A stretch of DNA of 64,000 bases from contig NZ_CP116257.1 in NCBI RefSeq assembly GCF_027947595.1, positions 1,612,001-1,676,000 of the forward strand, read 5' to 3'. Below, one piece after another: positions 1,411-52,063 of this stretch. This DNA comes from Streptomyces lienomycini. Its GTDB lineage: Bacteria; Actinomycetota; Actinomycetes; Streptomycetales; Streptomycetaceae. The notes under the pieces were generated by a model. The model saw only the letters and a program-made list of their open reading frames with translations, ran no database searches and was not told where the DNA came from. Position 1 is the first letter of the stretch. Each line of letters begins with the position of its first letter. The translations under genes were made by a program, and so were the position numbers.

Positions 1411-1483
1411 GACACCGGACGGCGGAGCCGCAGAGTGTTCAAGGCGGTCCGCCATGAGGCCCAGGGGTCGTAGGATCCTCTGT

Positions 1484-3004
1484 GTGATTACGGGCGAACT
1501 GAAGAGCAAGGTGGGGCGCGTCTGGGATGCGTTCTGGTCCGGCGGCATCTCCAACCCGCTGGAGGTGATGGAGCAGATCACCTACCTGCTCTTCATCAAG
1601 CGGCTGGACGAGATCCAGACCCGCAAGGACCGCAAGGCGACCGCAACGGGCAAGCCCGACCCGGATCCCTTCTTCTCGGACGACCAGCAGGATCTGCGCT
1701 GGCAGAACTTCAAGGTCAAGGACCCCGAAATCATGTACGGGCTAGTTGCGGATGGAGTTTTCCCGTACCTCCGCCGCATGGGCGGGGACGAGTCGACGTA
1801 CTCCCACCACATGAAGGACGCCCGGTTCACGATCCCGGGGCCCAACCTGCTGGCGAAGGTCGTCGACCTGCTCGACGAGATCTCCATGGACAGCAGCGAC
1901 ACCAAGGGCGACATCTACGAGTACCTACTCGCGAAGATCGCCACGGCTGGCCAGAATGGCCAGTTCCGCACGCCGCGCCACATCATCGACCTGATGGTTG
2001 AGATGACTCAGCCGGGACCGCGCGACGAGATCTGCGACCCGGCGTGCGGCACGGCCGGCTTCCTGGTGCAGGCGGCGTCGTACGTACAGCGGGTCCACCG
2101 CGACGCGCTGCTCGGGGTGGAGCAGCGCAAGCACTTCAACGAGTCGATGTTCCACGGCTTCGACTTCGACAACACGATGCTCCGCATCGGCTCGATGAAC
2201 ATGCTTCTGCACGGCATCGAGAACCCGGACATCCGCTACCGCGACTCCCTCGCGGAAAACGCGGCTGGCGAGGCAGAGCGCTACTCTTTGATCCTCGCGA
2301 ACCCACCCTTCGCGGGGAGCCTGGACTATGAGTCCACGGCGGTGGACCTCCAGCGCATCGTCAAGACGAAGAAGACGGAACTGCTGTTCCTGGCACTGTT
2401 CTTGCGTCTCCTAAAGCCCGGTGGTCGGGCCGCCGTCATCGTCCCGGACGGCGTGCTCTTCGGCTCGACGAAGGCCCACAAGGAGCTGCGCCGCATCCTG
2501 GTGGAGGAGCAGCAGCTCCAGGCGGTGGTCAAGCTCCCGAGCGGGGTCTTCAAGCCATACGCCGGTGTCTCAACGGCCATCCTGTTCTTCACGAAGACGG
2601 ACTCGGGCGGTACGGACCACGTCTGGTTCTACGATGTGCAGGCGGACGGCTTGAGCCTGGACGACAAGCGCAACCCGTTGCTTCCGGAGGAGCGCCTGGG
2701 CGTCAGCCCCCGGGGCAACCCGCTGACGCCAGACGAACTCTTGAAGAACAACCTCCCGGACGTCCTGGCCCGTTGGCAGGAACGAGATGGCATGGAGAGG
2801 GACCGGGCGAGGACCGAACAAAGCTTCTGCGTTCCCAAAGCGGACGTCGCAGCGCAGGGCTACGACCTCTCCCTAAACCGTTACAAGGAGATCGTCTATG
2901 AGGAGGTCGTGACGCGAACGCCAGCGGACATCTTGGCGAATCTGGAGCGACTGAACGAGGAGATCGCCAAGGGTACGGCGGAGTTGAAGGGGATGCTGGC
3001 GTGA
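1484..3004 (+). CDS. hsdM: Type I restriction-modification methyltransferase subunit HsdM
   Basis: This 506-residue protein begins at GTG 1484 (ITGELKSKVGRVWDAFW), matching the usual HsdM_N start. The N-terminal helical domain (FIKRLDEIQ) is followed by the N6-adenine methyltransferase domain: SAM-binding motif I DPACGTAGF near residue 185 and catalytic motif IV NPPF near residue 272. Both are intact, so it should methylate adenine in the target chosen by HsdS. It overlaps hsdS by 4 nt (GTGA), implying translational coupling. A longer upstream frame exists but would overlap the preceding gene and adds no recognisable sequence. Confidence 0.95.
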   Translation: MITGELKSKVGRVWDAFWSGGISNPLEVMEQITYLLFIKRLDEIQTRKDRKATATGKPDPDPFFSDDQQDLRWQNFKVKDPEIMYGLVADGVFPYLRRMGGDESTYSHHMKDARFTIPGPNLLAKVVDLLDEISMDSSDTKGDIYEYLLAKIATAGQNGQFRTPRHIIDLMVEMTQPGPRDEICDPACGTAGFLVQAASYVQRVHRDALLGVEQRKHFNESMFHGFDFDNTMLRIGSMNMLLHGIENPDIRYRDSLAENAAGEAERYSLILANPPFAGSLDYESTAVDLQRIVKTKKTELLFLALFLRLLKPGGRAAVIVPDGVLFGSTKAHKELRRILVEEQQLQAVVKLPSGVFKPYAGVSTAILFFTKTDSGGTDHVWFYDVQADGLSLDDKRNPLLPEERLGVSPRGNPLTPDELLKNNLPDVLARWQERDGMERDRARTEQSFCVPKADVAAQGYDLSLNRYKEIVYEEVVTRTPADILANLERLNEEIAKGTAELKGMLA

Positions 3005-4209
3005 GCGCACCCACGGTCCGAATCGGCGACATAAGCGAGCAGATCCGTGGTGTCACCTACGGGAAGGCGGATGCCACCTTGAATAGCAGCCCGGGGTATC
3101 TTCCGATTCTCCGAGCAGGGAACATCGGAGAATCGGGAATCACTTTCGATGATCTTGTCCATGTTCCCGCTGCAAAAGTGGCGGAGCGACAAATGATCCG
3201 CCAAGGCGACGTTCTGATCGCAGCGTCGAGCGGTAGCTTGTCCGCAGTCGGGAAGGCGGCGCAGGCCACCGAAGATTTCGACGGGGCATTCGGGGCTTTT
3301 TGTAAAGTGCTACGCCCGAACGAAAAAGTCGACGCCCGCTATTTCGGGCATTTTTTCCGCACCGCTCCCTATCGGCGGCATGTGGCTAATGCGGCGGCCG
3401 GAGCGAATATTAACAATCTTCGCAATGAGCATCTGGATAGCTTGACCCTGCGGTTGCCGTCCTTCGCAGTGCAAAAGCGCATCGCCGCCATCCTCGATCA
3501 GGTGGATACCCTCCGCGCCAAGTGCCGCGAGGCCATCGCTTTCCTCGGCGATCTGACCCAAGCCATGTTCATTCGTATGTTCCAGTGCGAGGGGTGTCAT
3601 AAGGAGCCGTTGAGTGCGATTGTACGTAAGGGGACGATTGTAACTTACGGAATCGTTCAGGCTGGCGATGAATTCGAGAGAGGTGTGCCTTACATTCGAA
3701 CCGGTGATCTCAAAGACGGTAAAATTGTCACTCATGGATTGCGACATACGGACCCGTCCATCGCAGCGAAGTTTGCAAGGTCGCGAGTTCAAGCAGGCGA
3801 AATCGTGATGAGTATTCGCGCTACTGTGGGGACTACTGCACTGGTGCCGGCCGAACTTGACGGTGCAAACTTGACTCAAGGTACCGCGCGTATTGCGCCT
3901 GGCGATAGGGTGACTGCAGAGTATCTGCTGGCCTACTTGCGGTCCCGTGAGGCGCAGTCCTGGATTCATCGGCAGGTGAAGGGTGCTACTTTCCGTGAAA
4001 TCACTCTCGGGAAGTTGCGTGAACTCGAAGTTCCGCTGCCCCCGTTCGCTCGGCAACTGGAATTTTCGCAGCGGGTGCAAGCAGCGGAGGCGCAGCTTGC
4101 CGTACACCGCACTCACCTCGCCACCCTTGACGAACTCTTCACTTCCCTTCAGCACCGTGCTTTCTCCGGCGCCCTCTGGGATCATGAAGCCTTCGGCGAG
4201 GCCGCGTAA
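3001..4209 (+). CDS. hsdS: Type I restriction-modification specificity subunit HsdS
   Basis: This 402-residue protein has the two-fold HsdS layout: target-recognition domain 1 (about residues 1-150), central conserved helix region LPSFAVQKRIAAILDQVDTL (about 153-172), target-recognition domain 2 (about 196-350), and a distal conserved region LPPFARQLEFSQRVQAAEAQ. It should set the bipartite DNA sequence recognised by the M2S and R2M2S complexes. The gene overlaps hsdM by 4 nt. Base composition is visibly more A/T-rich than both neighbours (for example 3280-3450 and 3600-3800), as expected for recently exchanged TRD segments. The recognition sequence cannot be deduced from the protein. Confidence 0.95.
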   Translation: MSAPTVRIGDISEQIRGVTYGKADATLNSSPGYLPILRAGNIGESGITFDDLVHVPAAKVAERQMIRQGDVLIAASSGSLSAVGKAAQATEDFDGAFGAFCKVLRPNEKVDARYFGHFFRTAPYRRHVANAAAGANINNLRNEHLDSLTLRLPSFAVQKRIAAILDQVDTLRAKCREAIAFLGDLTQAMFIRMFQCEGCHKEPLSAIVRKGTIVTYGIVQAGDEFERGVPYIRTGDLKDGKIVTHGLRHTDPSIAAKFARSRVQAGEIVMSIRATVGTTALVPAELDGANLTQGTARIAPGDRVTAEYLLAYLRSREAQSWIHRQVKGATFREITLGKLRELEVPLPPFARQLEFSQRVQAAEAQLAVHRTHLATLDELFTSLQHRAFSGALWDHEAFGEAA

Positions 4210-4264
4210 GCCGCTCTCGTCGTACCCGGTGCGCAGCACCGACCGCACCACACGCCGCCCGTGC

Positions 4265-4286
4265 GGCCGGGCAGGGGAGCCCGGCC
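4265..4286 (+). other. Hairpin in the hsdS-hsdR gap
   Basis: The inverted repeat GGCCGGGC/GCCCGGCC with a 6-nt loop lies 56 nt after the hsdS stop. There is no T-run, so it may be an mRNA-stability or attenuation element rather than a clear terminator. It could help set a different level for the nuclease than for the methylase. Confidence 0.4.
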
Positions 4287-4400
4287 CACAGGTGGTTCTG
4301 CTGTAGGAGACGGACGAACACGTTGGCCTCGTGCGGGCCGGGACGCCGACCCCGGTCCCGTACGACAGGGCCGCCACAGGGGGAGGGGCACCGCACCGCC

Positions 4401-7400
4401 ATGGGTAGCGACCAGAACAATCAGAGCAGCCAGAACAGCGACGCTCAAGGTCAGGCCGAGCACGGCAAGAGCGCCCGTGATCGCGCCGCCGCCGACAACA
4501 TCGGCCGAACCGCAAGCGGCAACTTCACCTTCCTCCGCGCCGAATGGCCCGCCCTCCATGACGAAGCGACCCGCGCCGAGCGGCTGATCCACCACGACCC
4601 CCGCGCCGCCTGCTTCTACGCCCGCCGTGCCATCGAGATCACGGCCCGCTGGATGTACGACAAGGACACCAGCCTCAGCGAGCCCTACAAAAAAGATCTG
4701 GCGGCGATGCTCCACGAGCCGAGCTTCCGGCAGCTCGTCGGGCCGACGGTCAACGCCAAGATGGACCTCATCCGTCGGCACGGCAACAACGCCGTGCACA
4801 AGGCCGCCCCGGTCCCGAAAGCCGTTGCCGAGGCCAGCGTCAGGGAGCTGTTCCACTCCCTCTACTGGTTCGCACGCACCTACACGCGCCAGGCTTCGGC
4901 TCTGCCGCTCGCCGGGCTGGAGTTCGACACCAGCGCCGTACCGCGTCCCCTTTCCCCGCAGGGCCGCGCCCTAAAGCAGGCCGAGCTCAAGGCCAAGGAG
5001 GCGGAGGACGAGTCACGCTTCAAGCAGCAGGCCGAGGAACTGGCCGCCGAGCGCGCGCAGAACAAGGATCTCGCCCGCCAGCTCGAAGAGCTCAAGGCGC
5101 AGGTCGCCGCCGCCAAGGCCGCCAACCAGGCCGTGCGGGACATGCACGACTACGACGAGAAGGCGACCCGGGACGCCTTCATTGACCTGCTCCTCAAGGA
5201 AGCGGGCTGGGACCTCCTCACCCCGGGCAAGGACACCGAGTATCCGATAGCGGCCGGGATGTCGACCAAGACGGGCAGGGGTTACGTCGACTACGTGCTC
5301 TGGGGCGACGACGGCAAGCCCCTCGCTGTCGTCGAGGCCAAACGCGCCCGGCGGGACGCCCGTGACGGGCAGCAACAGGCGAAGCTGTACGCGGACGCGC
5401 TCCAGGAGCAGTTCAACCGGCGCCCGGTGATCTTCTACACCAACGGCTACGAGACCTACCTCTGGGACGACGCCGCGTGGGGCGAGGAAAATGGCAAGGA
5501 GAAGGGCTACCCACCCCGCAAGGTGCAGGGCTTCCTCACCAAGGAAGAGCTCCATTGGCGCATCCGCCAGCGCGCCGGACGCCTCTCCCTCATCACCACG
5601 GCGGTGAACGAGAAGATCGCGGGCCGCCCCTACCAGCTCCGCGCGATCAAGCGGGTCGGCGCGACCTTCGAGCGGGACCGTATCCGTCAGGCGCTGCTCG
5701 TCATGGCGACCGGCACCGGCAAGACCCGTACCACCGTGGCCCTCGTGGACCAGCTGATGAAGGCCGGCTGGGCGCAGCGGGTGCTCTTCCTCGCCGACCG
5801 GCAGGCGCTGGTCACCCAGGCGATGAAGGCGTTCAAGGAGAACCTGCCGAACACCCCCGTGGCCAGCCTGCTCGACGACAAGGCCGCCTCTGCCCGTGTC
5901 TACCTCTCCACGTACCAGACGATGATGAAGCAGATCGACGTCGTGGACGGCGCGGGCCGACGCCGCTTCGGGCCGGGCCACTTCGACCTGATCGTCATCG
6001 ACGAGGCGCACCGCTCCGTGTACGCGAAGTACGGCGAGCTGTTCCGCTACTTCGACTCGCTCCTGCTCGGCCTGACCGCGACGCCCAAGGACGAGATCGA
6101 CCACAACACCTACAAGCTCTTCGCCATGGAAGACGGCGTGCCGACCGACTCCTACGACCTCCACGAAGCCGCCGCCGAGGGCTACCTCGTGCTCCCCAAG
6201 GCGGTGAAGGTGCCGTTGAAGTTCATGGAGCACGGCATTCGCTACGCCGAACGCTCGCCCGAGGAGAAAGCCGAGTGGGACGCCAAGGAGTGGACCGAGG
6301 ACGGTGACATCCCGGACGCGGTGGGCCGCCACGACATGAACAAGTTCCTCTTCAACGAGGACACCGTGGACAAGATGCTGGAGACGCTGATGACGCGCGG
6401 CCACCGCGTCGAGGGCGGCGACCGGCTCGGCAAGACGATCATCTTCGCCAAGAACAACGACCACGCCCGGTACATCGAGGAGCGCTACAACGCGAACTAC
6501 CCGCAGGGTGCCGGCCACACCGCGCGCGTGATCACGTACAAGGAGACGTACGCCCAGTCCCTCATCGACGACTTCTCCAACCCGAAGAACCCGCCGAACG
6601 CCCCCGACATCGCCATCTCGGTCGACATGCTCGACACCGGGATCGACGTGCCCGAGGTTGTGAACCTGGTCTTCGCCAAGCCGGTCTTCTCCAAGACCAA
6701 GTTCTGGCAGATGATCGGCCGCGGCACCCGCCTGCGCCCGGCCCTCTACGGCCCCGACCCCGGGAACCCAGACCACGCCAAGCAGAACTTCTACGTCTTC
6801 GACTTCTGCGGCAACATCGACTTCTTCAACAGCCAGCTCGACCGGTCGGAGGGACGCAGAGCCGTCACCCTCACCGAGAAGCTCCTCCAGCGCCAGCTCG
6901 ACCTGGTCCGGGTCCTGGACAAGCGGCAGCAGCCCGACCCGGCACGGGACGCCGGTCCCGAAGGGCTCGGCACCGAGGCGGAGATCCGCTGGTCACTGGC
7001 CCACCGGCTGCACCACACCGTCACCGGCATGAACCTGGACAACTTCCTGGTCCGCCCGCACCGCCGGGAGATCGAGGTCTTCAGCGACTTCGGAAGCTGG
7101 CACCGGGTGGACGACGACGCGGACACCGCGATCCGTGACCACCTGCTCGGACTGCCCAGCGAGTTCCGCCCGGACGACGAGGAGACGGGCGAGGAGGCCA
7201 AGCGATTCGACCTGATGGCCTATGGCCTCCAGCTCGCCGCGCTCGAAGGAGGCAAGGACTTCGCCAAGCTGCGCGGGAAGATCCAGGACATCGCCTCCAA
7301 CCTGCTCACCAAGACCAACATCCCGGCGGTCGGCGAGCAGGCCGAGCTGCTGGAAGCGGTGGCCAGCGAAGAGTGGTGGAACGACGTGACCCTCCCGATG

Positions 7401-41597: not shown

Positions 41598-41689
41598 CGC
41601 CCTCCCCGGGAGGAGCCCCCGAACCCGGAGCCCCCGAACCCGGGGGGAGGAGCCAAGTCCCCGCCGCCCCTTCCCCCGCGACACCCGCC

Positions 41690-41728
41690 GCCGCCCCCGT
41701 CCGGGCCCACCGCCCGGACGGGGGCGGC
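41690..41728 (+). terminator. Intrinsic terminator of glcP
   Basis: A perfect 17-bp stem, GCCGCCCCCGTCCGGGC/GCCCGGACGGGGGCGGC, with a 5-nt loop, 92 nt after the glcP stop. A short duplication of CCCGAACCCGG precedes it. Confidence 0.9.
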
Positions 41729-41804
41729 GCCGTCGTACGACACTCGCCCGCACACCTCGGAGTGGCTCGCGCGGCCGCACGCCCCTCTCATGGCATCCTG
41801 CTGC

Positions 41805-41822
41805 GCGAATCGATCAATTCGC
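41805..41822. promoter_or_regulatory. Inverted repeat upstream of the ole-type cluster
   Basis: GCGAAT-N6-ATTCGC lies 97 nt before the putative start of the first cluster gene, in an A/T-rich pocket with a repeated ATCGATC. It may be an operator, but no regulator gene lies in the cluster. Confidence 0.4.
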
Positions 41823-41918
41823 ATCGATCCCTCAGCCCCGATCAGTCCGAGAGTCTTCGGCTAGGCCGTCGTACGCCCTGCCGCCCGGTCGGCCGCCGCA
41901 TGCGCCCCGGGAGGACAC

Positions 41919-42917
41919 ATTTCCAGCTTCAGTCGGATTACCAGCGCAGCCGTTCATCATCCCGGGCAGCGTCAGTCGGTCGCGGAGGTCGAGGAGGCGG
42001 TGCGCGCCACCAACCCTCACCTGCTCATCGTCGACGGAGTACTGGAACGCCTCTACGGACTCCGGGAACGGCGCGTGGCCCCACCCGGCACCCTGCCCTC
42101 CGACCTCGCGGCCGCGGCGGGCGAGTCGGCGCTCGCACAGGCCGGTGTCTCGCCCGCGGACGTCGGTCTCCTGATCTTCGCCGGTGTCAGCGAGGACCTG
42201 GAGGAACCCGCCACCGCTCATGTCGTCGCCCACAAACTCGGCGTGCGGGCGCCCGTCTTCGACGTGAAGAACGCCTGCAACGGCGTGCTCAACGCCCTGC
42301 AGATCGCCGACGCGCTGATCAGGACCGGCACGCACACCACCGTGCTGATCACCACCGGCGAACTGCCCAGCCGGCTGATGCGGCTGCCGGCGGCCGACCG
42401 GTCCGAACTCGCCTACGCCATGCCCGCCTACACCGGCGGCGACATGGGCGCGGCCCTGCTCGTCCAGGCCTCGGCGGACCCCGGTCTGCTCGCCACCCGG
42501 TTCGCCGCCGACCCGGCCGGGTGGGACGCCGCGACCATGGTCAACCCCTACTTCGGCAGCGATGACCGGCCGAGGTGCCCGCGCATCGACTCCGAGTCCC
42601 TGGTGCGCTCGTGCCTGGGCTTCGCGCAGGACGGCGTGCGGGAGATGGAGGACCTGGGCTTCAAGATCGGGGACGCCGACCTCGTCTGCGTCCACCAGGC
42701 GTCGGTGCCCTTCACCCGCACGCTCTGCGCGGCCCTGGGCGCCGAACCGGACCACGTCGTCCCGGTCTTCCCCCGGTACGGCAACGTCGGCACCGGCTGC
42801 CTGCCCCTGCAACTGGTCGAGGCGCGGGACGCCGGGCGACTGAACCGCGGCGACCTGGTCGCCCTGTTCGGTCTCGCCAGCGGCACCAGCTGCGGCCTCG
42901 CCCTGTGCCAGTGGTGA
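41919..42917 (+). CDS. Ketoacyl synthase III/OleA-like condensing enzyme
   Basis: The thiolase-fold synthase has catalytic Cys in KNACNGVLNAL, His in CVHQASVPFT and Asn in YGNVGTGCLP. The first canonical in-frame start, GTG 42000, would remove the first beta strand. The frame upstream to a stop at 41862 contains SRITSAAVHHPGQRQSV, which looks like the family N-terminus, and an ATT at 41919 sits 4-5 nt after GGGAGGA. I therefore place the start at ATT 41919 (332 residues, the usual length), with GTG 42000 as alternative. It could join two acyl chains (OleA role) or prime with malonyl units (FabH role). It overlaps the ligase gene by 4 nt. Confidence 0.75.
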   Translation: MSSFSRITSAAVHHPGQRQSVAEVEEAVRATNPHLLIVDGVLERLYGLRERRVAPPGTLPSDLAAAAGESALAQAGVSPADVGLLIFAGVSEDLEEPATAHVVAHKLGVRAPVFDVKNACNGVLNALQIADALIRTGTHTTVLITTGELPSRLMRLPAADRSELAYAMPAYTGGDMGAALLVQASADPGLLATRFAADPAGWDAATMVNPYFGSDDRPRCPRIDSESLVRSCLGFAQDGVREMEDLGFKIGDADLVCVHQASVPFTRTLCAALGAEPDHVVPVFPRYGNVGTGCLPLQLVEARDAGRLNRGDLVALFGLASGTSCGLALCQW

Positions 42918-44596
42918 GCGACGCCTGGATCTGCTCGGTCCTGCAGTCCTACGAAGGCGACCACGCCCCGGCCCACCGCTACGTGGACGGCGACGGACAC
43001 ACCCGGGAACTCTCGCGGGCCCGGCTCCTGGACGAGGTACGCGACCGCGCCCGGCGGCTGACCGCGTGCGGGGCGGGCCCCGGCAGCCGGGTGGCGCTGT
43101 CGGCCGAGAACCCCGGGCGGTTCGTCCCCGCCTTCCTCGGCGCCGTCTGGGCCGGCATGATCCCCGTCCCGCTCCCGCCGCCACCGGTCCTCGGACGGCG
43201 CGACGCGTGGACCGAAGGGCTCGCCGCGTCGCTCCCCGTGGCCCGGCCGGACCTCGTCGTCGCCGAGGCGACGACGCTCGCCCAGCTGCCCCCGACCGCG
43301 GCCCGCCATCTCTCCTACGACTCCCTGGAGGCAGCCTCCGCACCGGCGGACCCGCCCGCACCCGCGGCCTACCGGCCCGACCGGACCGCCTACCTCCAGT
43401 TCAGCAGCGGCAGCACGGGACGGCCCAGGGCGGTCGTGGCCACCGCCGGCTCGGTGACCGCCAACAGCCTCGCCATCATGCGGCACGGACTGGCCGCCGA
43501 CCCCGCCCGCGACCACGGCGTGAGCTGGCTGCCGCTCCACCACGACATGGGCCTGGTCGGGTTCGTCCTCGCCCCGCTGGCCGTCGGCGTACCCGTGACG
43601 CTCCTCGCCACCCGACTGTTCGTCCGCGACCCCGGCATCTGGATGCGCACCCTGTCCGACGTGGGAGGCACGATCACCGGCGCCCCCAACTTCGCCTACG
43701 CGCTGGCCACCCGGCGCACGGACGACGACCGCCTGGCCCGCCTCGACCTGTCCGCGGCACACACCCTGCTCTGCGGCGGCGAACCGGTCAGTCCCCGCAC
43801 CCTGCGGCGCTTCGCCGACGCCCACCACGTGGCCGGACTCGACCCGGCGGCGCTGCGCCCGTGCTACGGACTGGCCGAGTCGACGCTCGCGGTGTCCATC
43901 GCCCCCCGGGGCACGGCATCGCGCCCCGACCGGGTCTCCTGGGCCCGCCTGCGCGACCACGACCGGGCCGCCCCCTGCGGCGACGACGAGGAAGCCGTGG
44001 AGGTCGCGGGCTGCGGTCCGCCCTTCCCCGGCCACGAGGCACGCGTCGTCGACGGCGCCGGACTGCCCTGCGCCGAGCGGCAGGTGGGCGAGATCTGGGT
44101 CCGCGGCCCCTCCGTGTGCGCCGGGTACGCGGACGAGGCGCGCGAGCGGCCCGCCCCGGTCGCCGACGACGGCTGGCTGCGCACCGGGGACCGCGGCTAC
44201 CTCGCCGACGGAGCCCTCCACCCGGCGGGCCGGCTGAAGGACGTCCTCGTCGTCCAGGGACGCAACATCGACCCGCAGCGCGTCGAGTGGGCCGCCGAGG
44301 CGGCGGAAGGCGTGCGCACCGGAGGAGCCGTCGCCTTCACCCGGCCGGGGACCGACACCGAGGAGGTGGTCGTGGTCGCCGAATGCCGCCCCCACCAGTC
44401 GGAGCGGATCGGCGGCGCCGTACGCGAGATCGTCTCGCAGCGCCTCGGGCTGAGCGTCGGCGACGTCGTGGCCGTCGTCCCGGGCACGCTCGCGAAGACG
44501 ACGTCGGGCAAACCCCGGCGCCAGGAGATGCGCCGCCGCTACCTCCTCGGAGACCTCCCACCCGTCACCACCGACCCGCGAAGGAACAGCTCATGA
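42914..44596 (+). CDS. Fatty acyl-AMP ligase-like enzyme (FAAL type)
   Basis: A 560-residue ANL-superfamily enzyme starting at GTG 42914, overlapping the upstream stop. The AMP-binding core has FSSGSTGRPRAVVATAG (P-loop), WLPLHHDMGLVG (FAAL-typical), CYGLAESTLAVS and DGWLRTGDRGYL. The HHDMGLVG and GLAESTLAV forms are characteristic of FAALs, which activate free fatty acids as adenylates and load them on an ACP rather than CoA. The next gene is an ACP, the expected acceptor. The C-terminal lysine region is KTTSGKPRRQEM. Confidence 0.85.
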   Translation: MSDAWICSVLQSYEGDHAPAHRYVDGDGHTRELSRARLLDEVRDRARRLTACGAGPGSRVALSAENPGRFVPAFLGAVWAGMIPVPLPPPPVLGRRDAWTEGLAASLPVARPDLVVAEATTLAQLPPTAARHLSYDSLEAASAPADPPAPAAYRPDRTAYLQFSSGSTGRPRAVVATAGSVTANSLAIMRHGLAADPARDHGVSWLPLHHDMGLVGFVLAPLAVGVPVTLLATRLFVRDPGIWMRTLSDVGGTITGAPNFAYALATRRTDDDRLARLDLSAAHTLLCGGEPVSPRTLRRFADAHHVAGLDPAALRPCYGLAESTLAVSIAPRGTASRPDRVSWARLRDHDRAAPCGDDEEAVEVAGCGPPFPGHEARVVDGAGLPCAERQVGEIWVRGPSVCAGYADEARERPAPVADDGWLRTGDRGYLADGALHPAGRLKDVLVVQGRNIDPQRVEWAAEAAEGVRTGGAVAFTRPGTDTEEVVVVAECRPHQSERIGGAVREIVSQRLGLSVGDVVAVVPGTLAKTTSGKPRRQEMRRRYLLGDLPPVTTDPRRNSS

Positions 44597-44883
44597 CACC
44601 GTCCGACATCCCGCAGGTCCTGCACCGGGCCTACCAGCAGGTCACGCAGCGCGACCCCGGGACCCTGGACCGGGACGCCGACATCCGCGCGCTGGGCGTC
44701 GACTCCGTGCAGCTCCTCGAAATGATCGTGATCGCCGAGACCGAGCTGGGCCTGCGCGTCCCGGACGCGGCCCTGGGCAGCGTGGAGACGATCGGGGACC
44801 TGTACGACATGCTCGGCCAGGCACTGCCGCAGACGCAGACGCAGGGACAGGCGCTTCCGCAGACCCCGACGGCCGTGCGATGA
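44593..44883 (+). CDS. Acyl carrier protein (first ACP of the cluster)
   Basis: A 96-residue carrier protein starting at ATG 44593 (overlap with the ligase stop). The phosphopantetheine serine is in LGVDSVQLLEMIV. Its tail is Gln/Pro/Thr-rich. Sitting directly after the FAAL and before the desaturase, it is the likely carrier of the activated chain for both. Confidence 0.9.
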   Translation: MTPSDIPQVLHRAYQQVTQRDPGTLDRDADIRALGVDSVQLLEMIVIAETELGLRVPDAALGSVETIGDLYDMLGQALPQTQTQGQALPQTPTAVR

Positions 44884-45674
44884 CCTCGATCGCACTGCGC
44901 GAGGCGTTCCACCGCGAGTTCATGACCTTCTTCGAGCGGGCCGAACGGACCCGCCGCTGGAGCGTCTTCGACGACGTCCCCTGGGACCGGCTGCCCGAGG
45001 TGCCGGAGGACCCCGGACTGGCCCTCGCCGCCGAGACGTTCTGCGGCATCGAGATGTTCCTGCCCGACTACCTCCAGGCCCACCTGTCGCTGCTGGTCGG
45101 CGACTACGGGCAGGCCTGGTTCTCCGCGAACTGGGGCTACGAGGAGGCCAAGCACGCCCTCGCCCTGCGCGAGTACCTGCTGCGCAGCGGCCGGCGCACC
45201 GAGGCGCAGCTGCGGGAGTTCGGGGACGCCGTACTGGCACGCCGCTGGGAGCCGCCGTACCGGACGCCCCGGCAGATGGTCGTGTACTCCGCCCTCCAGG
45301 AACTGACGACCTTCGTCAGCTACCGCAAGCAGCGCGAACTCGCCCAGCGGCTGGACGACCCGGTCCTCGCCGAGGTCTACCGGCTGATCGGCCGGGACGA
45401 GATGGCGCACTGCCGCTTCTACCAGCGGATCCTGACCCTGCACCTCGACGAGGACCGGGACGGCACGCTGAAGGACCTCGCCCACGTGGTGCGCACCTTC
45501 CGCATGCCCGCCCACGAGCTGCTGCCCGACCGCGCGGACCGCGAGAGCGTCCGCACCACCGGCTTCGGCAACGGCGCCTTCATCACGGAGGTCGTCCTGC
45601 CCTCGCTCGGCGCGCTCGGCCTCACCCGGCACGACCTGTACTCCGCCGCGGCCACCGTGCCCGCGGCCCGCTGA
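44880..45674 (+). CDS. Di-iron acyl-ACP desaturase-like oxygenase (FA_desaturase_2/ferritin-like)
   Basis: A 264-residue all-helical protein overlapping the ACP gene by 4 nt. The four-helix di-iron ligand set is visible: Glu in ETFCGIE, EExxH in YEEAKHAL, Glu in LQELTTFVSY and ExxH in RDEMAHCRFY. This fits soluble acyl-ACP desaturases or related di-iron oxygenases acting on ACP-bound chains. It is shorter than the second desaturase of the cluster and clearly diverged from it, so the two may act at different positions or do different reactions. Confidence 0.8.
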   Translation: MTSIALREAFHREFMTFFERAERTRRWSVFDDVPWDRLPEVPEDPGLALAAETFCGIEMFLPDYLQAHLSLLVGDYGQAWFSANWGYEEAKHALALREYLLRSGRRTEAQLREFGDAVLARRWEPPYRTPRQMVVYSALQELTTFVSYRKQRELAQRLDDPVLAEVYRLIGRDEMAHCRFYQRILTLHLDEDRDGTLKDLAHVVRTFRMPAHELLPDRADRESVRTTGFGNGAFITEVVLPSLGALGLTRHDLYSAAATVPAAR

Positions 45675-45687
45675 GGCGGGGTTCCGG

Positions 45688-45719
45688 GCGGCTCCCGCGG
45701 ACCGTGCCGCGGGAGCCGC
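45688..45719. terminator. Bidirectional terminator between the two desaturase genes
   Basis: A 13-bp perfect stem, GCGGCTCCCGCGG/CCGCGGGAGCCGC, with a 6-nt loop in the 58-bp convergent gap. Confidence 0.85.
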
Positions 45720-45732
45720 TCCGACCGGCCCC

Positions 45733-46659
45733 CTAGAGCGCGGAGTTCACATGGCCGGCGAACCTGCGCGCCTGCGCTTCCGACCCCCGCAGCAGCACCG
45801 CGAGCCGGTCCCGGGCCTCCTCGCCGTCGGCGCCGAGACCGGTCCGGTCGAACACCCGCAGGTGGCGCACGACCGGTGCCAGCACCTCCGTGTGGTGGGT
45901 CACCGGGGAGTAGATGCCCGACCGCGCCATCGACATCGACAGACGCGGGAAGTCGGGCGCGGCGTGCGCCGGGGACCGGAACGTCGCCACCACGGTCGCC
46001 AGCGCCCGTACGGTCCGCTCCGGCCGCAGTTCCATGGCCGCTTCGAGGATCCGGCGGTAGAACAGCATGTGCCGGTTCTCGTCCTGGGCGATCCGCCGCA
46101 GCAGCGCCGCGCACACCGGCTCGCCGCAGATCCGCCTGATGTTCCGGTACGAGATCCGGGTCGCCAGTTCCTGCAGGGTGACGTACACCAGCCCGGCCAG
46201 CACGTCGCCGCGGTAGTCGCTGTCGTACCCGGTCTGCATGTGCCGTCGGCGCGCGTCCTCCATGGCCACCGGATCGGCGGCCCGCGTGACGACCAGGTAG
46301 TCCCGGACGGCCGTCCCGTGGCGGTCCTCCTCCACCGTCCACCGGTTGACCCAGGTGCCCCACGCGCCGTCCCTGCTGAACAGCTCGGCGATCACCCGGT
46401 GGTAGCTGGGCAGGTTGTCCTCGCTCAGGAGGTTGTGCAGCAGCGCGTCCCGCACCGCGGAGTCCATGGCGCCCTGCTCCGGCGACCAGGGCTCCCCTTC
46501 CAGGGGTCCGTCGTAGTCGCGCCCGAGCGCCCACGGAACGAACCGGTGCGGATACCAGTCGTCCGCGGTTTCGAAATGGGTGTCCAGGGCGCGTGCCACC
46601 ACCGGCTCCAACTCGGTGAGCAGCCCGATGTCTTCGCGCTCCACCTCTGGCGCGTGCAT
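45733..46659 (-). CDS. Acyl-ACP desaturase (DesA type)
   Basis: A 308-residue soluble di-iron desaturase starting at ATG 46659. The plant-type signature is nearly perfect: first Glu around SEDNLPSYH, EEDRHG in NRWTVEEDRHGTAV, Glu in LQELATRISY and DENRH in AQDENRHMLFY. It introduces double bonds into ACP-bound fatty acids with O2 and ferredoxin. It is the only cluster gene on the minus strand, divergent from oleB across 263 bp of control region. Whether it serves the cluster or general lipid desaturation is not clear from sequence. Confidence 0.9.
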   Translation of the reverse strand: MHAPEVEREDIGLLTELEPVVARALDTHFETADDWYPHRFVPWALGRDYDGPLEGEPWSPEQGAMDSAVRDALLHNLLSEDNLPSYHRVIAELFSRDGAWGTWVNRWTVEEDRHGTAVRDYLVVTRAADPVAMEDARRRHMQTGYDSDYRGDVLAGLVYVTLQELATRISYRNIRRICGEPVCAALLRRIAQDENRHMLFYRRILEAAMELRPERTVRALATVVATFRSPAHAAPDFPRLSMSMARSGIYSPVTHHTEVLAPVVRHLRVFDRTGLGADGEEARDRLAVLLRGSEAQARRFAGHVNSAL

Positions 46660-46922
46660 AACAGCCTCCCGACGATGCCGAAGTGCGGCGAGACCGTCCA
46701 CGCTCCGGCGGATTCCAACCGGTCACCGGCCATGCTCGCCCACCGCGCGGGCGCACCCCGCACAGCGCGCCGGGCCGCCGACGAGAGCCGGTAAGTGTGA
46801 TGAATTCCGGTGAGCGACAAGGGGGTTCGCGCTCGGGGCACGCCTGATCCAGCCGGGTGAAGTTTCCGCGCCGACGAGAATTCCGCGCCGTCCGGCCGTC
46901 GGAGCCGACCTACCGTGGCGCC

Positions 46923-47846
46923 ATGCCTCCCCCCACGCCGCCGGCCGACCTGCTGCCCGGCTACCCGGCGGCCGACCGGTGGCGGCGCGTCCCGCAAACC
47001 GGCCAGCACTACGTCGACGCCGGATCGGGCCCGCCCGTCCTGCTGCTGCACGGGAACCCGTCGTGGAGCTACCAGTGGCGGCACCTGATCGCCGCGCTCT
47101 CCCCGGACTTCCGCTGCGTCGCCCCCGACCTCGCCGGGCTGGGGCTGTCACCGCGACCGCGCGTACCGGCCGCCGCCGTCGACCGGCATCTGCTGCAACT
47201 CGACCACCTCGACGCGCTGTTCGATCACCTCACCGCAGGCCGGGACACGCCCCGCGACGCCTGGACGCTGGTGCTGCACGACTGGGGCGGTCCGCTCGGC
47301 CTCGCCTGGGCGCGGCGCAGGGCACTGCGCCCCGCCCGCGTCGTCGTGCTCAACTCCCTCTGCTTCCCCTGGCCTTCCGGCTACCGGCTGCCCTTCTACC
47401 TGCGCTGGATCCGGGACCACCGCGGCGTCGCCGCCCTGGCCCACGCCACCAACTTCTTCCCCCGGGCCGCCGTACGCGGCGGAGTCGTGGCTCCGCTGCG
47501 CCGGGCCGAACGGCGGGCGTACCTGCTGCCGCTCGCCCGCGGCGGCGACCGGCGCGCGGTCGTGGACTTCGTACGCGGCATCCCGCGCGACGAACGGGAG
47601 GAGGCCTGGCGGCTCCTCGAACCGGGCGACGACGACGGGACCGACCTGGCCACCCTGCCGCTGTTCGTCGGCTGGGGCATGCGCGACCCCGTGTTCACGC
47701 CGCTCGTCCTCAAGGAGTGGGAACGCCGGTTCCCGCACGCGCGGGTCCACCGCTATCCCGACGCCGGCCACTACGTCATGGAGGACGCGGCACACCGGCT
47801 CGGGCGGGACATCCGCGACTTCCTCTCCTCCTCGGAACGGGGCTGA
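46923..47846 (+). CDS. oleB: OleB-like alpha/beta hydrolase (beta-lactone decarboxylase type)
   Basis: A 307-residue haloalkane-dehalogenase-family hydrolase starting at ATG 46923. Oxyanion motif LLHGNPSWSYQWRHL, nucleophile Asp in VLHDWGGPLG (HDWGG instead of GxSxG), and the catalytic His in PDAGHYVMED are present. OleB enzymes decarboxylate cis-beta-lactones to olefins. In many actinobacteria OleB is fused to OleC, but here they are separate genes 2 nt apart. The lid domain around residues 140-200 would set chain preference. Confidence 0.85.
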   Translation: MPPPTPPADLLPGYPAADRWRRVPQTGQHYVDAGSGPPVLLLHGNPSWSYQWRHLIAALSPDFRCVAPDLAGLGLSPRPRVPAAAVDRHLLQLDHLDALFDHLTAGRDTPRDAWTLVLHDWGGPLGLAWARRRALRPARVVVLNSLCFPWPSGYRLPFYLRWIRDHRGVAALAHATNFFPRAAVRGGVVAPLRRAERRAYLLPLARGGDRRAVVDFVRGIPRDEREEAWRLLEPGDDDGTDLATLPLFVGWGMRDPVFTPLVLKEWERRFPHARVHRYPDAGHYVMEDAAHRLGRDIRDFLSSSERG

Positions 47847-47848
47847 CC

Positions 47849-49417
47849 ATGGCCGACCTCCACGCCCGGCTGGAGCGGCTCGCCGCGGAACGGCCGCACG
47901 ACACCGCCCTCGTCCACGGCCGCCGCGACGGTTCGGGCCGGGCCGTCACCTTCGCCCGGCTCGTCGCGGGATGCCGGGAGGCGGCCCGGGCCTTCGAACG
48001 GGCCGGGGTACGCCGCGGCCACAAGGCCGTGACCATGACCGGCGACCCGTACCACCTGTTCACCACCGTCCACGGCCTGCTCGCCGTCGGAGCGGTCCCG
48101 GTCCTGGTCGACCCCGGCCTGCCCCGGGCCGCCCTGCGGCAGTGCCTGGACGAGGTCGCCCCCGAGGTCTTCGTCGGGCAACCGCTCGCGCACCTGGGGC
48201 GTACGGCACTGGGCTGGGCCCGCGGTCACGTAAGGACGGCCGTCGTCACCGGGGCGTCCGTGCCGGGCCTGCGGCGGCGACTGCCCGTGCCCCGCGCCCG
48301 GCAGGGCCGGACGCCCTCCCCTCCGCCCGCGCCCGACGACCTCGCGCTGATCGCCTTCACCTCCGGATCGACCGGGATTCCCAAGGGGGCCGAGTACCAC
48401 CACAGCACCCTGGTCGGGCAGGCCGAGACGCTGGCCCGCCTGGTCGGCACCGACGGCACGCTGTTCGCCGGGTTCCTTCCCGTCGTCCTGCTCGGGCCGC
48501 TGCTCGGGCACACGACCGTCGCCCCCGCGGTCAGCCACCGCGCCCCGGCCCGCACACCGCCCGCACGCCTGGTCCGCCCGCTCCTGGAGCACCGGACGGA
48601 CGTGGTGGTCGGCTCGCCCGCCGTCCTCGGGCTGCTCGCCGAGCACTGCGCGCGCAGGCGGCTCACCCTCGACTCCGTCGACCGCGTGATCTCCTTCGGC
48701 GCCCCGCTGCGCGCGGGCCTCGCCGACGCGCTGCACGCGGTGCTGCGGCCGGACGCCCAGGTGCTCAGCGCGTACGGGGCCACCGAGTGCCTGCCGGTGA
48801 GTGCCGTCAGCACCACCGAGGCCCGCTCCCCGGGCACCGGCACCTGCGTGGGCCGGCCCCTCGACGGCGTCGTGGCCAGGATCCTCGACGCCGGTCCCGA
48901 CGGTGTCGGCGAGATCGCCGTCACGGGCGGCAACGTCAGCCCGGCCTACCACGCCCGGCCCGAGGCCACCGCGGCCGCCAAGACCGTCACCGACCAGGGC
49001 GTCCAGCACCGGACCGGCGACATGGGGACCATCGACGAGGCGGGCCGCATCTGGTTCCACGGCCGCCGCAGCCACCGCGTCCTCGGTACCGACCACGTCC
49101 TGACCACCGAGGACGTCGAGGCCGCCGCCGACACCGTGCCCGGCGTACGGCGCAGCGCCCTCGTCGGCGTCGGCGAGCCGGGCCGGCAGCGGGCCGTGCT
49201 GTGCGTGGAGCTGACCGCACGGGCACCCGGGCGGGGGGCTGGACGGGGGGCGGTGGTCGCGGCGGTGCGTGAGCTGCTCGACCGGCGTCCCGAAGGGCGG
49301 CACGTCACCGCCGTCCTCGTCCACCCGGGATTCCCGACGGACATCCGGCACAACTCCAAGATCAACCGTGAGCGGCTGGCCGACTGGGCCGCCCGGCGCC
49401 CGCGGAGGCCGCGGTGA
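47849..49417 (+). CDS. oleC: OleC-like beta-lactone synthetase (ANL superfamily)
   Basis: A 522-residue adenylating enzyme starting at ATG 47849, 2 nt after oleB. AMP-binding FTSGSTGIPKGAEYHHS, SAYGATECLPVSAVS and HRTGDMGTIDEAGRIWF are present. The C-terminal DIRHNSKINRERLADWA matches the OleC-specific motif, distinguishing it from ordinary acyl-CoA ligases. OleC closes beta-hydroxy acids to beta-lactones using ATP. Coupled by a GTGA overlap to oleD. Confidence 0.88.
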   Translation: MADLHARLERLAAERPHDTALVHGRRDGSGRAVTFARLVAGCREAARAFERAGVRRGHKAVTMTGDPYHLFTTVHGLLAVGAVPVLVDPGLPRAALRQCLDEVAPEVFVGQPLAHLGRTALGWARGHVRTAVVTGASVPGLRRRLPVPRARQGRTPSPPPAPDDLALIAFTSGSTGIPKGAEYHHSTLVGQAETLARLVGTDGTLFAGFLPVVLLGPLLGHTTVAPAVSHRAPARTPPARLVRPLLEHRTDVVVGSPAVLGLLAEHCARRRLTLDSVDRVISFGAPLRAGLADALHAVLRPDAQVLSAYGATECLPVSAVSTTEARSPGTGTCVGRPLDGVVARILDAGPDGVGEIAVTGGNVSPAYHARPEATAAAKTVTDQGVQHRTGDMGTIDEAGRIWFHGRRSHRVLGTDHVLTTEDVEAAADTVPGVRRSALVGVGEPGRQRAVLCVELTARAPGRGAGRGAVVAAVRELLDRRPEGRHVTAVLVHPGFPTDIRHNSKINRERLADWAARRPRRPR

Positions 49418-50562
49418 GCGCGTCCGCCCCCGCCCGGGTCCTCGTCACCGGCGGCAGCGGCTTCCTCGGCGCCGAGATCTGCCGGCAACTCACCGCCCGG
49501 GGCACCGAGACGGTCTCCCTCAGCCGCCGCCCGAGCGCCGCACTGACGCGGCTCGGCGTACGCCAGGTCCACGGCGACCTCACCGACCCGGCCGCCGTCG
49601 ACCGGGCCCTCGCCGGCTGCGACGCCGTCGTCCACAACGCCGCCCTCGCGGGATCCGGCGGTCCGGCGGGCCCCTACCGGCGCACCAACGTCGACGGCAC
49701 CCGCACGGTGCTCGACCGGTGCCGCCGGCACGGTGTGCGCACCCTCGTCCACACCTCGACCGCCAGCGTCGTCTTCCGGCCCGGGGGAGTGGTGAACGCC
49801 GACGAGTGGCTGCCCCACCCGCGCCGGTACCTGGCCGCCTACCCGCACACCAAGGCCGTCGCCGAGACCCTCGTCCTGGGCGCCCACGCCCCCGGCCTCG
49901 CCACCCTCGCCCTGCGCCCGCACATCATCTGGGGGCCGGGTGATCCGCACTTCCTGCCCGCCCTCACGCGCGCCGTCCGCGGGGGCCGCCTCGTCATGCC
50001 GGGCGACGGCTCCAACCTCGTCGACACCACCCACGTCCGCACCGCCGCCCACGCCCACCTGCTCGCCCTCGACCACCTCCACCAGGGGCGGCCCGTCGGC
50101 GGCCGGGCCTACTTCGTCGCCCAGGGCGAGCCGCTGCCGCTGAGGGACCTCGTCCTCGCGCTGCTCGCCGCCGCCGGTGTCCGCGCCGTCTGGCGGCCCG
50201 TACCCGCCGCCCTCGCCCACGCCGCCGCGATCGTGCGCGAGACCGCCGCCCGGCTGCCGGGCACCACCGGTACGCACGGCCTCAGCCGCTTCCTGGTCGC
50301 CGAACTGGTGCACCCGCACTGGTTCGACCTGACCTCGGCCCGCACCGGTCTCGGGTTCACGCCGCCGCTCGGCGTCGCCGAGGGCATCCGGGAGGCGTTC
50401 GAGGCGGCCGGCCGCCCCACGGCGGGCGCGGACCTCCTCGCCCGGTTCCTGCCCGGGCCGACGCCGCCGTCCACAGCGGCCGACCCGGCCGGGACGAAGC
50501 GCCCGCCCCCGCCCGCTCACCCCGCCTCACCCGGCACCGAGAAGGGAACCGCCCGCCCATGA
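49414..50562 (+). CDS. oleD: OleD-like NAD(P)-dependent beta-keto acid reductase (SDR/3-beta-HSD family)
   Basis: A 382-residue extended SDR starting at GTG 49414. The cofactor motif is VLVTGGSGFLGAEI, the catalytic Ser is in HTSTASVVF and the YxxxK pair in AAYPHTKAVAET. OleD reduces the 2-alkyl-3-ketoacid from OleA to the beta-hydroxy acid used by OleC. The C-terminal 50 residues are Pro-rich and disordered. It overlaps the next ACP gene by 4 nt. Confidence 0.86.
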   Translation: MSASAPARVLVTGGSGFLGAEICRQLTARGTETVSLSRRPSAALTRLGVRQVHGDLTDPAAVDRALAGCDAVVHNAALAGSGGPAGPYRRTNVDGTRTVLDRCRRHGVRTLVHTSTASVVFRPGGVVNADEWLPHPRRYLAAYPHTKAVAETLVLGAHAPGLATLALRPHIIWGPGDPHFLPALTRAVRGGRLVMPGDGSNLVDTTHVRTAAHAHLLALDHLHQGRPVGGRAYFVAQGEPLPLRDLVLALLAAAGVRAVWRPVPAALAHAAAIVRETAARLPGTTGTHGLSRFLVAELVHPHWFDLTSARTGLGFTPPLGVAEGIREAFEAAGRPTAGADLLARFLPGPTPPSTAADPAGTKRPPPPAHPASPGTEKGTARP

Positions 50563-50810
50563 CCGACACCTACGACGTGATCCGCTCCGTACTGACCACG
50601 ACGTTCCGGATCCCCGACGACGAGATCAGCCCCGAGCGCACACTCGAACAGCTCGAACTGGACTCCCTCGCCCTCGCCGAGTTCGCGCTCATCCTCCAGG
50701 AACGCCTTGAGGTGCGGATCGACGAGGAGCACGCCACCCGGGCCACCACCCTCGCGCAGGTCACCGAGCACCTCGACACCCTGCGCAACCAGTCGGTGGC
50801 CACGCAGTGA
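50559..50810 (+). CDS. Acyl carrier protein (second ACP of the cluster)
   Basis: An 83-residue carrier protein starting at ATG 50559. The phosphopantetheine attachment Ser is in LELDSLALAEF. Its sequence differs strongly from the first ACP of the cluster, so the two probably serve different enzymes: this one is coupled by overlap to the downstream KASII. Confidence 0.9.
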   Translation: MTDTYDVIRSVLTTTFRIPDDEISPERTLEQLELDSLALAEFALILQERLEVRIDEEHATRATTLAQVTEHLDTLRNQSVATQ

Positions 50811-52036
50811 CACCCCGGAGCCCCGTCGCGATCACCGGGCTCGGCCTGATCACACCGGGCGGAGAGGGAGCGCGGGCGACCTGGGACGCGGTGTGCGCCG
50901 GAACCGGCACCGCGGCCCCGGACCCCGCACTCACCGGCCTGCCCGTGGACTTCTCCTGCCGCGTCCCCCTGGCCGAGGAGGAACTGGACCGACGGGTCGG
51001 ACGCCGGGCGTGGCGCATGGGACGCTCGGCGAAGCTCGCCGTCCTCGCCGCCCGGGAAGCCGTCCGCGACGCCGGTCACCGCACCGCCGACTGGGACGGC
51101 GCCCGCGTCGCCACGATCCTCGGCTGCGGCATGGGCTGCGTGGACAGATGGGAGGAGCAGGGCCGACGCCTGGAGGAGCGCGGCCCCGACTTCGTCTCGC
51201 CGCTCGCCATCCCCCTGGTCCTGCCGAACCTCGGCGCCGGTGAGGTCTCCATCGACCTCGGGGCCCGCGGCATCAGCCTCGCCCCGGCCACCGCCTGCGC
51301 CTCCGGGGCGACCGCCCTCGCGCTGGCCCGCGACCTGCTGGCCGCCGACCTGTGCGACGTGGCCGTGGCCGGCGGCGTCGAGGCCGGTGTCAGCCGCCTG
51401 TCCGCCACCGGCTTCTGGCGCATGGGGGCCCTCTCCGAACGCCGCACCGCGCCGGCCGGGGCGTCCCGGCCGTTCGCCGCCGACCGGGACGGCTTCGTCG
51501 TCGCGGAGGGGGCCGGTGTCCTGGTCCTCGAACGCGCCGCCGACGCCGCCGCCCGCGGCAAGCCGCCCCGCGCCCTGCTCGCGGGCTGCGGCAGCACCTC
51601 CGACGCCCACCACCCCACCGCGCCCTCCCCCGACGGGCGCGGAGCGGAGGCCGCACTGCGCATCGCGCTCACCGAGGCCGCGCTCGATCCCGGGGACGTC
51701 GACCACGTCAACGCCCACGGCACGTCCACGCCGCTCAACGACGCCGCCGAGGCCGACCTGATCAGCCGGGCCCTGCCGCACCGGCCCAGTGTCACCGCGG
51801 CCAAGGGCGTCCTGGGGCACGGCCTCGGCGCCGCCGGGGCGATCGAGGCCGCGCTCACCGTGCTGACCCTCCAGCACCGGCGCGTCCCGCCGATCGCCAA
51901 CCTGGAGGCACCGGCACCCGGGTTCGACCTCGACTGCGTCGTGAAGGAACCGCGCCGCCAGGAGGTCCGCGCCGCGGTCAGCCACTCCTTCGGCTTCGGC
52001 GGGCACAACGTCGTCCTGGCGCTGACCCGCCCGTAG
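50807..52036 (+). CDS. Beta-ketoacyl-ACP synthase II-like enzyme
   Basis: A 409-residue FabF-type synthase starting at GTG 50807. The Cys-His-His triad is complete: TACASGATALALA, VNAHGTSTPLND and KGVLGHGLGAAG. It condenses malonyl-ACP with an acyl chain. As the last gene of the cluster, coupled to its own ACP, it may extend or build a chain for the ole-type enzymes. No ketoreductase or dehydratase partner is encoded in the cluster, so reduction would rely on the host fatty acid synthase or OleD. Confidence 0.92.
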   Translation: MTPRSPVAITGLGLITPGGEGARATWDAVCAGTGTAAPDPALTGLPVDFSCRVPLAEEELDRRVGRRAWRMGRSAKLAVLAAREAVRDAGHRTADWDGARVATILGCGMGCVDRWEEQGRRLEERGPDFVSPLAIPLVLPNLGAGEVSIDLGARGISLAPATACASGATALALARDLLAADLCDVAVAGGVEAGVSRLSATGFWRMGALSERRTAPAGASRPFAADRDGFVVAEGAGVLVLERAADAAARGKPPRALLAGCGSTSDAHHPTAPSPDGRGAEAALRIALTEAALDPGDVDHVNAHGTSTPLNDAAEADLISRALPHRPSVTAAKGVLGHGLGAAGAIEAALTVLTLQHRRVPPIANLEAPAPGFDLDCVVKEPRRQEVRAAVSHSFGFGGHNVVLALTRP

Positions 52037-52063
52037 CCCACCGGGCGGGACGCCTCCGGGACC

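Follow-up and report, generated by a model that had tools for sequence, protein, structure and literature searches.

A conserved ole gene block with a proposed chain supply of its own

Ten genes at positions 41919–52036 of a 64,000-nucleotide stretch of Streptomyces lienomycini DNA (hereafter the window; positions 1612001–1676000 of the 7.86-Mb chromosome) form a real, conserved and uncommon cluster, which we are inclined to read as an OleABCD head-to-head condensation pathway with a dedicated carrier-bound substrate supply. The genes run in the order oleA, fatty acyl-AMP ligase (FAAL), acyl carrier protein 1 (ACP1), a first di-iron protein (diFe1), a second di-iron protein on the minus strand (diFe2), oleB, oleC, oleD, ACP2 and a ketosynthase of the 3-ketoacyl-ACP synthase II type (KASII). 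We favour an Ole pathway because all four Ole proteins are present and the catalytic residues of OleA and OleB are intact; judging from the enzyme families, the most likely product is a head-to-head olefin carrying additional double bonds, perhaps retained at the beta-lactone stage. The sequence data support the gene content, the protein families, the active-site residues, the gene order, the selection on the genes and a discordance between OleA and OleBCD. The strongest new points are that the supplier/OleA half appears to have been exchanged and that an actinomycete branch of OleA does not fit the published search pattern. The pathways known to make long-chain olefins and beta-lactones are fed with acyl-CoA; plug-in carrier-bound suppliers, if real, would explain how the condensation, lactonisation and decarboxylation core is retargeted to new chains, would offer a natural model of how olefin structure might be programmed and would point to unexamined hydrocarbons or beta-lactones in Streptomyces.

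An initial annotation, made from the letters of the window alone, had proposed these ten genes; all of them were found there, with families assigned by Pfam and NCBIfam profiles, and the recurrence that it had put forward as a check was also found. A genome-contig scan with OleC gave 77 loci. All ten genes occur in the same order, with 79–96% identity, in four other Streptomyces genomes, namely S. olivaceus, S. sp. A108, S. sp. CCM_MD2014 and S. ardesiacus (L001–L004), and the first eight only, with 60–81% identity, at another chromosomal site in S. filipinensis (L005). Because this order is repeated in four other genomes and the dN/dS values of all ten genes against them are 0.14–0.38, the block is not a chance assembly; against L005 the values are 0.24–0.45 except for ACP1. 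The block is rare in the genomes searched: relatives of diFe1 were found in 1 of 101 genomes (its own), 1 of 394 (its own) and 3 of 392 (its own, G574 and G535), in three overlapping draws of which the larger ones scored six candidates per genome. No diFe1 relative was found in the plasmid collection at 1e-20 or in the viral contigs, which speaks against plasmid or viral carriage.

The block occupies the same site in the window and in L001–L004, between a sugar transporter gene that adjoins smc and a cytosine/purine permease gene, and the flanks are colinear where present. We compared this site (window 41598–52063) with 14 transporter loci from 12 genomes. Four of them (L093, L094, L095 and L097) carry smc, the transporter and the permease, the last two separated by a gap of ~1.1–1.2 kb in which no oleA or KASII match was found; the other ten showed no permease in the 1.5 kb covered, and three of these ten lack smc and may be paralogues. 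The comparison fits an insertion of the block as a unit.

The statement of the initial annotation that most junctions are 4-nt overlaps holds in the window, where six of nine are ATGA or GTGA, but the overlaps are not kept in every relative. In the window they occur at oleA/FAAL, FAAL/ACP1 and ACP1/diFe1, with FAAL, ACP1 and the desaturase genes interleaved between oleA and oleB; unlike the window, S. filipinensis L005 has its oleA and FAAL frames ~66 nt apart. The oleB and oleC genes do not overlap, and a 2-nt gap separates them if oleC starts at ATG 47849. As diFe2 is reversed, at least three transcription units are needed, which from the strands would be oleA-FAAL-ACP1-diFe1, diFe2 and oleB-C-D-ACP2-KASII; its position on the opposite strand rules out one single operon.

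Identity of the Ole proteins

The first gene (41919–42917, plus strand) encodes an acyl condensing enzyme of the 3-ketoacyl-ACP synthase III type (KASIII; PF08541/PF08545), 332 amino acids long from an ATT codon. It had been described as a KASIII/OleA-like synthase; the Ole family stands, and the protein is best described as OleA itself, judging from its nearest solved structures and its Cys, His, Asn and Glu residues. Its best solved relatives are Xanthomonas campestris entries, e.g., 3fk5, which are annotated as 3-oxoacyl-[ACP] synthase III and which we take to be OleA. We aligned 142 OleA-like sequences selected by similarity to the window OleA (20 from the loci of the OleC tree, L086, L087 and 120 listed proteins), in which the catalytic Cys is conserved in 142, the His in 141 and the Asn in 140. 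The Glu of the EP motif, presumably corresponding to Glu117 of X. campestris OleA with its catalytic role, is found in 140, the window included, the remainder being one gap and one Cys in the FabH-like KASIII of L087. Alignment to the X. campestris chains likewise places the catalytic Cys-His-Asn and the Glu in the window protein.

A 2020 survey (PMC7158056) searched for OleA with the pattern EPxx[AS]x(14,18)DxxNACL and, in the excerpts available, names Micrococcales as the only Gram-positive order with oleABCD genera; the word Streptomyces is absent from its main text. The window OleA reads NACN instead of NACL and fails this pattern, which is a survey pattern and not a functional criterion. 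Only six of the 142 sequences match it (three from Proteobacteria, one from Planctomycetota and two from Brevibacterium; none from Streptomyces), a relaxed pattern ending in [ND]AC[NS] is matched by 127, and nine fit neither form. We infer that the survey overlooked the Streptomyces OleA branch owing to its pattern.

The ATT codon at 41919 lies behind GGGAGGA, and the next in-frame GTG, at 42000, would give 305 amino acids. The relatives start with ATT in L003 (3905) and L004 (4028), ATC in L001 (3888) and L002 (3606), and ATG in L005 (3896); the first 27 codons are weakly constrained (pooled dN/dS 0.54). The ATT start is probably right, given the ribosome-binding site, the use of ATG by L005 at this place and the consensus N-terminus of homologues. 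A conserved non-AUG start of OleA would be unusual.

The predicted beta-lactone decarboxylase OleB (46923–47846, plus strand; alternative GTG start 46857) is an alpha/beta hydrolase resembling haloalkane dehalogenases, and its gene adjoins oleC. The nucleophile Asp, Trp, acid Asp and His, which presumably have the catalytic roles of the haloalkane-dehalogenase fold, are conserved in all 29 aligned OleB sequences, that of the window included. The beta-lactone synthetase homologue OleC (47849–49417, plus strand) contains the C-terminal string DIRHNSKINRERL that had been called diagnostic. By Pfam an AMP-binding protein, it scores highest among the NCBIfam models against the general "fatty acid CoA ligase family protein" (420 bits against a cut-off of 478), followed by two olefin beta-lactone synthetase models named for Xanthomonas and Shewanella subtypes, whose cut-offs of 900 and 850 it fails with 389 and 287 bits. 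In a tree of 36 OleC rows and only four outgroup rows, for which long branches were warned of, the window OleC groups with the 35 other OleC sequences, apart from the FAAL and three Bacillota ligases (SH-aLRT 98); the proposed tree check against ordinary ligases thus places it with OleC and not with the four ligases tried. OleD (49414–50562, plus strand), a 3Beta_HSD/epimerase-type homologue of 2-alkyl-3-oxoalkanoate reductase, has OleD as its best NCBIfam model (335 bits, cut-off 580), the best non-OleD model scoring 125 bits. The Ole identity first claimed for these proteins is supported; OleD, assessed by profiles, is probably an OleD reductase.

Putative genes for chain supply

The stand-alone FAAL (560 amino acids; 42914–44596, plus strand; Pfam AMP-binding) has the fatty acyl-AMP ligase PRK09192 as its best NCBIfam model, at 431 bits and below the cut-off of 600. 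Its best PDB relative is 3pbk, a Fatty Acyl-Adenylate Ligase (3.9e-93), and the next ones are mostly FAAL/FadD-type chains, so that its closest relatives are fatty acyl-AMP ligases. ACP1 (44593–44883, plus strand; PF00550, 5.5e-11) and ACP2 (50559–50810, plus strand; PF00550, 4.7e-11) both carry a DS serine motif, and relatives of ACP2 adjoin KASII in related loci. The KASII-type ketosynthase (50807–52036, plus strand; PF00109/PF02801) matches the FabF model at 7.5e-117, below its cut-off, and S. filipinensis carries a 77% relative of it at another locus.

Both di-iron proteins belong by sequence to the acyl-ACP desaturase family (FA_desaturase_2, PF03405), with a predicted desaturase activity. 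In diFe1 (264 amino acids; 44880–45674, plus strand; PF03405, 5e-22), the ligands E58, E89/H92, E141 and E174/H177 are invariant in 41 sequences, namely that of the window and those of 40 out of 120 listed homologues. Its AlphaFold2 model has a pLDDT of 87.6, and the best 20 of the 22 PDB matches of this model at E<=0.001 are acyl-ACP desaturases, the other two being R2-like oxidases. The best solved relative of diFe2 (~322 amino acids, start approximate; 45733–46701, minus strand; PF03405, 5.5e-57) is M. tuberculosis DesA2 (1za0, 2.7e-42). The full ligand set and the fold were found in both, in diFe2 by the profile and the alignment to DesA2 and castor desaturase only.

Related ole loci in Streptomyces

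OleA matches at E<=1e-50 were found in 33 of 295 Streptomyces genomes, its own included, when seven candidates per genome were scored. The other 35 OleA matches lie in 34 loci, which were scored by tblastn. All of oleA, B, C and D are present in 12 of these loci, a type I polyketide synthase (PKS) match in 12, ACP2 and/or KASII within ~10 kb in 20 (S. ardesiacus included), a FAAL-like ligase in six and a desaturase relative in two, while only that of S. ardesiacus has the ten-gene block. Contig ends truncate at least five loci, so that some absences may be false.

Several chain suppliers accompany these genes. In L132, L136 and L138, a PKS stands beside oleA-B-C-D-ACP2-KASII. The two PKSs that were domain-scanned (L010 and L079) both read ketosynthase, acyltransferase, dehydratase, methyltransferase, enoylreductase, ketoreductase and ACP; the PKS labels of L007 and L013 come from matches to KASII and from translating the first part of long frames, rather than from a domain scan. 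L008 is arranged as oleB-A-C-D-ACP2-KASII-MMPL, and L009 alike by eye; Nonomuraea L081 carries KASII, oleC-D-B and oleA, to which inspection by eye adds an ACP and an MMPL-like frame. The union of ole genes with a FAAL, ACPs and desaturases, which the initial annotation knew from no other system, is real in its anatomy and is better seen as one of several: oleABCD, with ACP2-KASII behind it in some loci, also stands next to a type I PKS, and one FAAL-ACP-desaturase set occurs on a contig that carries no ole genes.

Discordant histories of OleA and OleBCD

The OleBCD tree unites the window group (window, L001 and L005) with nine PKS-linked clusters (100/100). The window OleBCD may be either nested in the PKS-linked set or sister to it (support 64/40); in the tree of OleC alone, nesting has a support of 94. 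In an earlier smaller set comparing L007/L013/L079 with L008/L009, holding the window with the ACP2-KASII-type L008/L009 was rejected for OleBCD (approximately unbiased test, p-AU 3.6e-6); the OleA value of that comparison (p-AU 0.015) was replaced by a larger OleA set. All p-AU values given here are post hoc, the clades having been named after the identities were seen.

In the larger OleA tree, 15 Streptomyces PKS-linked OleA proteins form their own clade (SH-aLRT 100), five of whose loci showed no complete oleBCD, and holding the window OleA group with these 15 costs 129 log units (p-AU 4e-54). The window OleA instead groups with those of L086, L147, L148 and L149, all of them OleA-ACP2-KASII loci (SH-aLRT 97; 93/97). 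Holding the window OleBCD with L147/L148/L149 gives a p-AU of 0.00054, an unclean comparison that also splits L147 from its strong sister L157 and is given no weight here. The OleA and OleBCD groupings are thus discordant, indicating that the two have different histories and that OleA changed with its supplier; these differing histories argue against a joint transfer of all ole genes. A chain supplier and the OleA that goes with it would seem to form a cassette open to exchange, and OleBCD the shared half. The window KASII groups with those of the PKS-type L132/L136/L138 and of L086/L148/L149 (96/94). L147 itself carries a pair of OleA genes from different branches, next to oleB-C-D and ACP2-KASII; its oleB was matched in two pieces.

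Proposed pathway and alternative explanations

We infer each chemical step below, as well as ACP over CoA as the donor and the chain carried by each ACP. The FAAL would load a fatty acid onto ACP1, and diFe1 and diFe2 would desaturate the bound chain once or twice, or oxidise it in a related way. A second chain could be supplied or extended by ACP2 and KASII, which would draw on the reductases of primary fatty acid synthesis. OleA would then join the two chains without decarboxylation, OleD would reduce the beta-keto acid, OleC would close the beta-lactone and OleB would decarboxylate this lactone to give an internal olefin carrying additional double bonds. In other loci, OleA and its supplier would have been exchanged as a cassette against other suppliers, such as a type I PKS with its own OleA. 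A narrower version, which we put forward tentatively, is that an ACP-dependent OleA branch cross-condenses two different carrier-bound chains and gives programmed, unsymmetrical polyunsaturated olefins or beta-lactones in Streptomyces, a genus outside the one Gram-positive order with oleABCD genera in the survey. The exchangeable cassette would provide chain 1, using FAAL, ACP1 and the two desaturases in the window and a type I PKS in other loci, and ACP2/KASII would provide chain 2.

Several observations weigh against a carrier-fed OleABCD pathway. The OleA proteins studied so far use acyl-CoA, according to the available excerpts of PMC7064751. No dedicated ketoreductase, dehydratase or enoylreductase accompanies KASII/ACP2, the NCBIfam OleC and OleD models match below their cut-offs, and ACP1 has a dN/dS of 0.80 against L005. 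On the OleA tree, the PKS label needs two changes and the ACP2/KASII label five. The OleA proteins of L135, L139 and L143 lie beside the PKS clade, and their loci have OleA-ACP2-KASII without oleBCD in the 20 kb examined; several other OleA loci also lack oleBCD, and the partnership of these genes is thus a loose one. Inside its group, the window KASII falls weakly with L086/L148/L149 (80/78) and may have arrived with OleA or stayed with OleBCD. In S. filipinensis, ACP2/KASII are not beside oleD, and a second OleA-ACP2-KASII set lies at L086 8537–11245, without oleBCD matches. This set counts in favour of the pathway, but less so since its KASII groups with that of L148 and not with that of the window, which speaks against a mere relocation of a window-type pair. 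Lastly, the 7.9-kb contig L085 of G535 carries at 385–6212 a FAAL, a methyltransferase like cyclopropane synthases (CMAS), an ACP, a 62% diFe1 relative and an acyl-CoA oxidase-like protein but no ole gene, another use of the FAAL-ACP-desaturase set.

A variant that is compatible with the carrier-fed pathway, and that we consider somewhat unlikely, takes a bioactive, lipstatin-like beta-lactone as the end product and lets OleB serve in hydrolysis, resistance or editing. In its favour, PMC7064751 regards clusters that have OleA-C-D but lack OleB as beta-lactone producers, an MMPL transporter occurs in the relative L008 (and in L081 by eye), and lipstatin-type clusters with a nonribosomal peptide synthetase (NRPS) and a formyltransferase are more distant relatives. 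Against this, oleB is present with the catalytic residues described above and a dN/dS of 0.21–0.37 against L001–L004, and neither the ten genes nor the scanned neighbours include an NRPS or a formyltransferase.

An ordinary acyl-CoA-fed oleABCD pathway, into which the FAAL, ACPs, desaturases and KASII of an unrelated lipid pathway are interleaved, appears unlikely. The acyl-CoA use of characterised OleA, the FAAL-ACP-diFe1 set on the ole-free contig and the lack of ACP2/KASII beside oleD in L005 agree with it, but the FAAL, ACP1 and desaturase genes sit between oleA and oleB with overlapping starts, and their order is kept at one site (window, L001–L004) and, for eight genes, at another (L005). 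KASII and/or ACP2 near OleA in 20 of the 34 other loci, and the different histories of OleA and OleBCD, also argue for the carrier-fed pathway instead.

KASIII-ACP-KASII trios are known starter sets of the red type. It is improbable that the KASIII is a FabH/RedP-like starter enzyme making a fatty chain de novo with ACP2 and KASII, as the FabH-like trio in S. natalensis (L087) and a second KASIII preceding ACP2-KASII-OleA in L150 (by eye) might suggest, since the conserved OleA Glu, replaced by Cys in the L087 KASIII in a set chosen by similarity, the X. campestris OleA as closest PDB sequences and the counterpart of this KASIII as the only KASIII match (tblastn) beside oleBCD in L008, L010 and L079 all weaken it.

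Comparison with known systems

The OleABCD pathway described so far is not known to include a FAAL, ACPs of its own, soluble desaturases or a KASII. The window shares four homologous enzymes, the OleA and OleB catalytic residues and the oleB-oleC-oleD adjacency with OleABCD of Xanthomonas, Shewanella and Micrococcus, but its OleA reads NACN where the survey pattern has NACL, and the known pathway is described with acyl-CoA substrates. In Shewanella, the available text of PMC6463001 describes a Pfa-OleABCD linkage, in which a PKS-type Pfa synthase feeds unsaturated chains to OleA; there, in another phylum, the unsaturation comes from the Pfa synthase and not from FAAL/ACP/di-iron desaturases.

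Lipstatin/nocardiolactone-type oleACD clusters also combine OleA, OleC and OleD homologues in actinomycetes, but with an NRPS and a formyltransferase (L080, L082) or, in the excerpts of PMC7064751, without OleB. L080 (a Streptomyces plasmid) and L082 (a Rhodococcus qingshengii plasmid) carry such lipstatin-type sets of KASIII, oleC, oleD, NRPS and formyltransferase, L082 with an additional MMPL transporter. Their OleC proteins form a branch of their own, seen with L080 and L082 in the first OleC tree and with L080 in the second.

JamB-type desaturases are membrane proteins. JamABC/polyyne cassettes share with the window a FAAL, an ACP and a desaturase acting on the ACP-bound chain, as far as the excerpted text of PMC8406139 goes, whereas the window enzymes are soluble PF03405 proteins and would pass their chain on to OleA. 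Cyanobacterial olefin synthase likewise uses a FAAL-ACP entry to an olefin-forming pathway, but forms a terminal olefin by a modular PKS with a sulfotransferase and thioesterase, without OleABCD, in the available part of PMC11837247. OleC does not occur in the accessible text of either source on these FAAL systems. No Streptomyces oleABCD cluster with a FAAL and desaturases, and no match to a characterised cluster, was found in the titles, beginnings of abstracts and passages of the open-licence PMC literature, outside of which most subscription papers lie.

Further loci contain parts of these sets. In S. natalensis, L006 (9980–13094) holds oleC, oleD, ACP2 and a KASII fragment without an oleA or oleB match, a probable remnant that lies elsewhere from the FabH-like KASIII-ACP-KASII trio of L087. 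In another Streptomyces, L157 (3639–12750) has a 50% desaturase relative and a distant KASII (43%) beside oleB-A-C-D. L159–L163 combine OleA relatives with a FAAL-like ligase, without oleB or oleC matches, and perhaps belong to another pathway; P450-like neighbours were seen by eye in L160.

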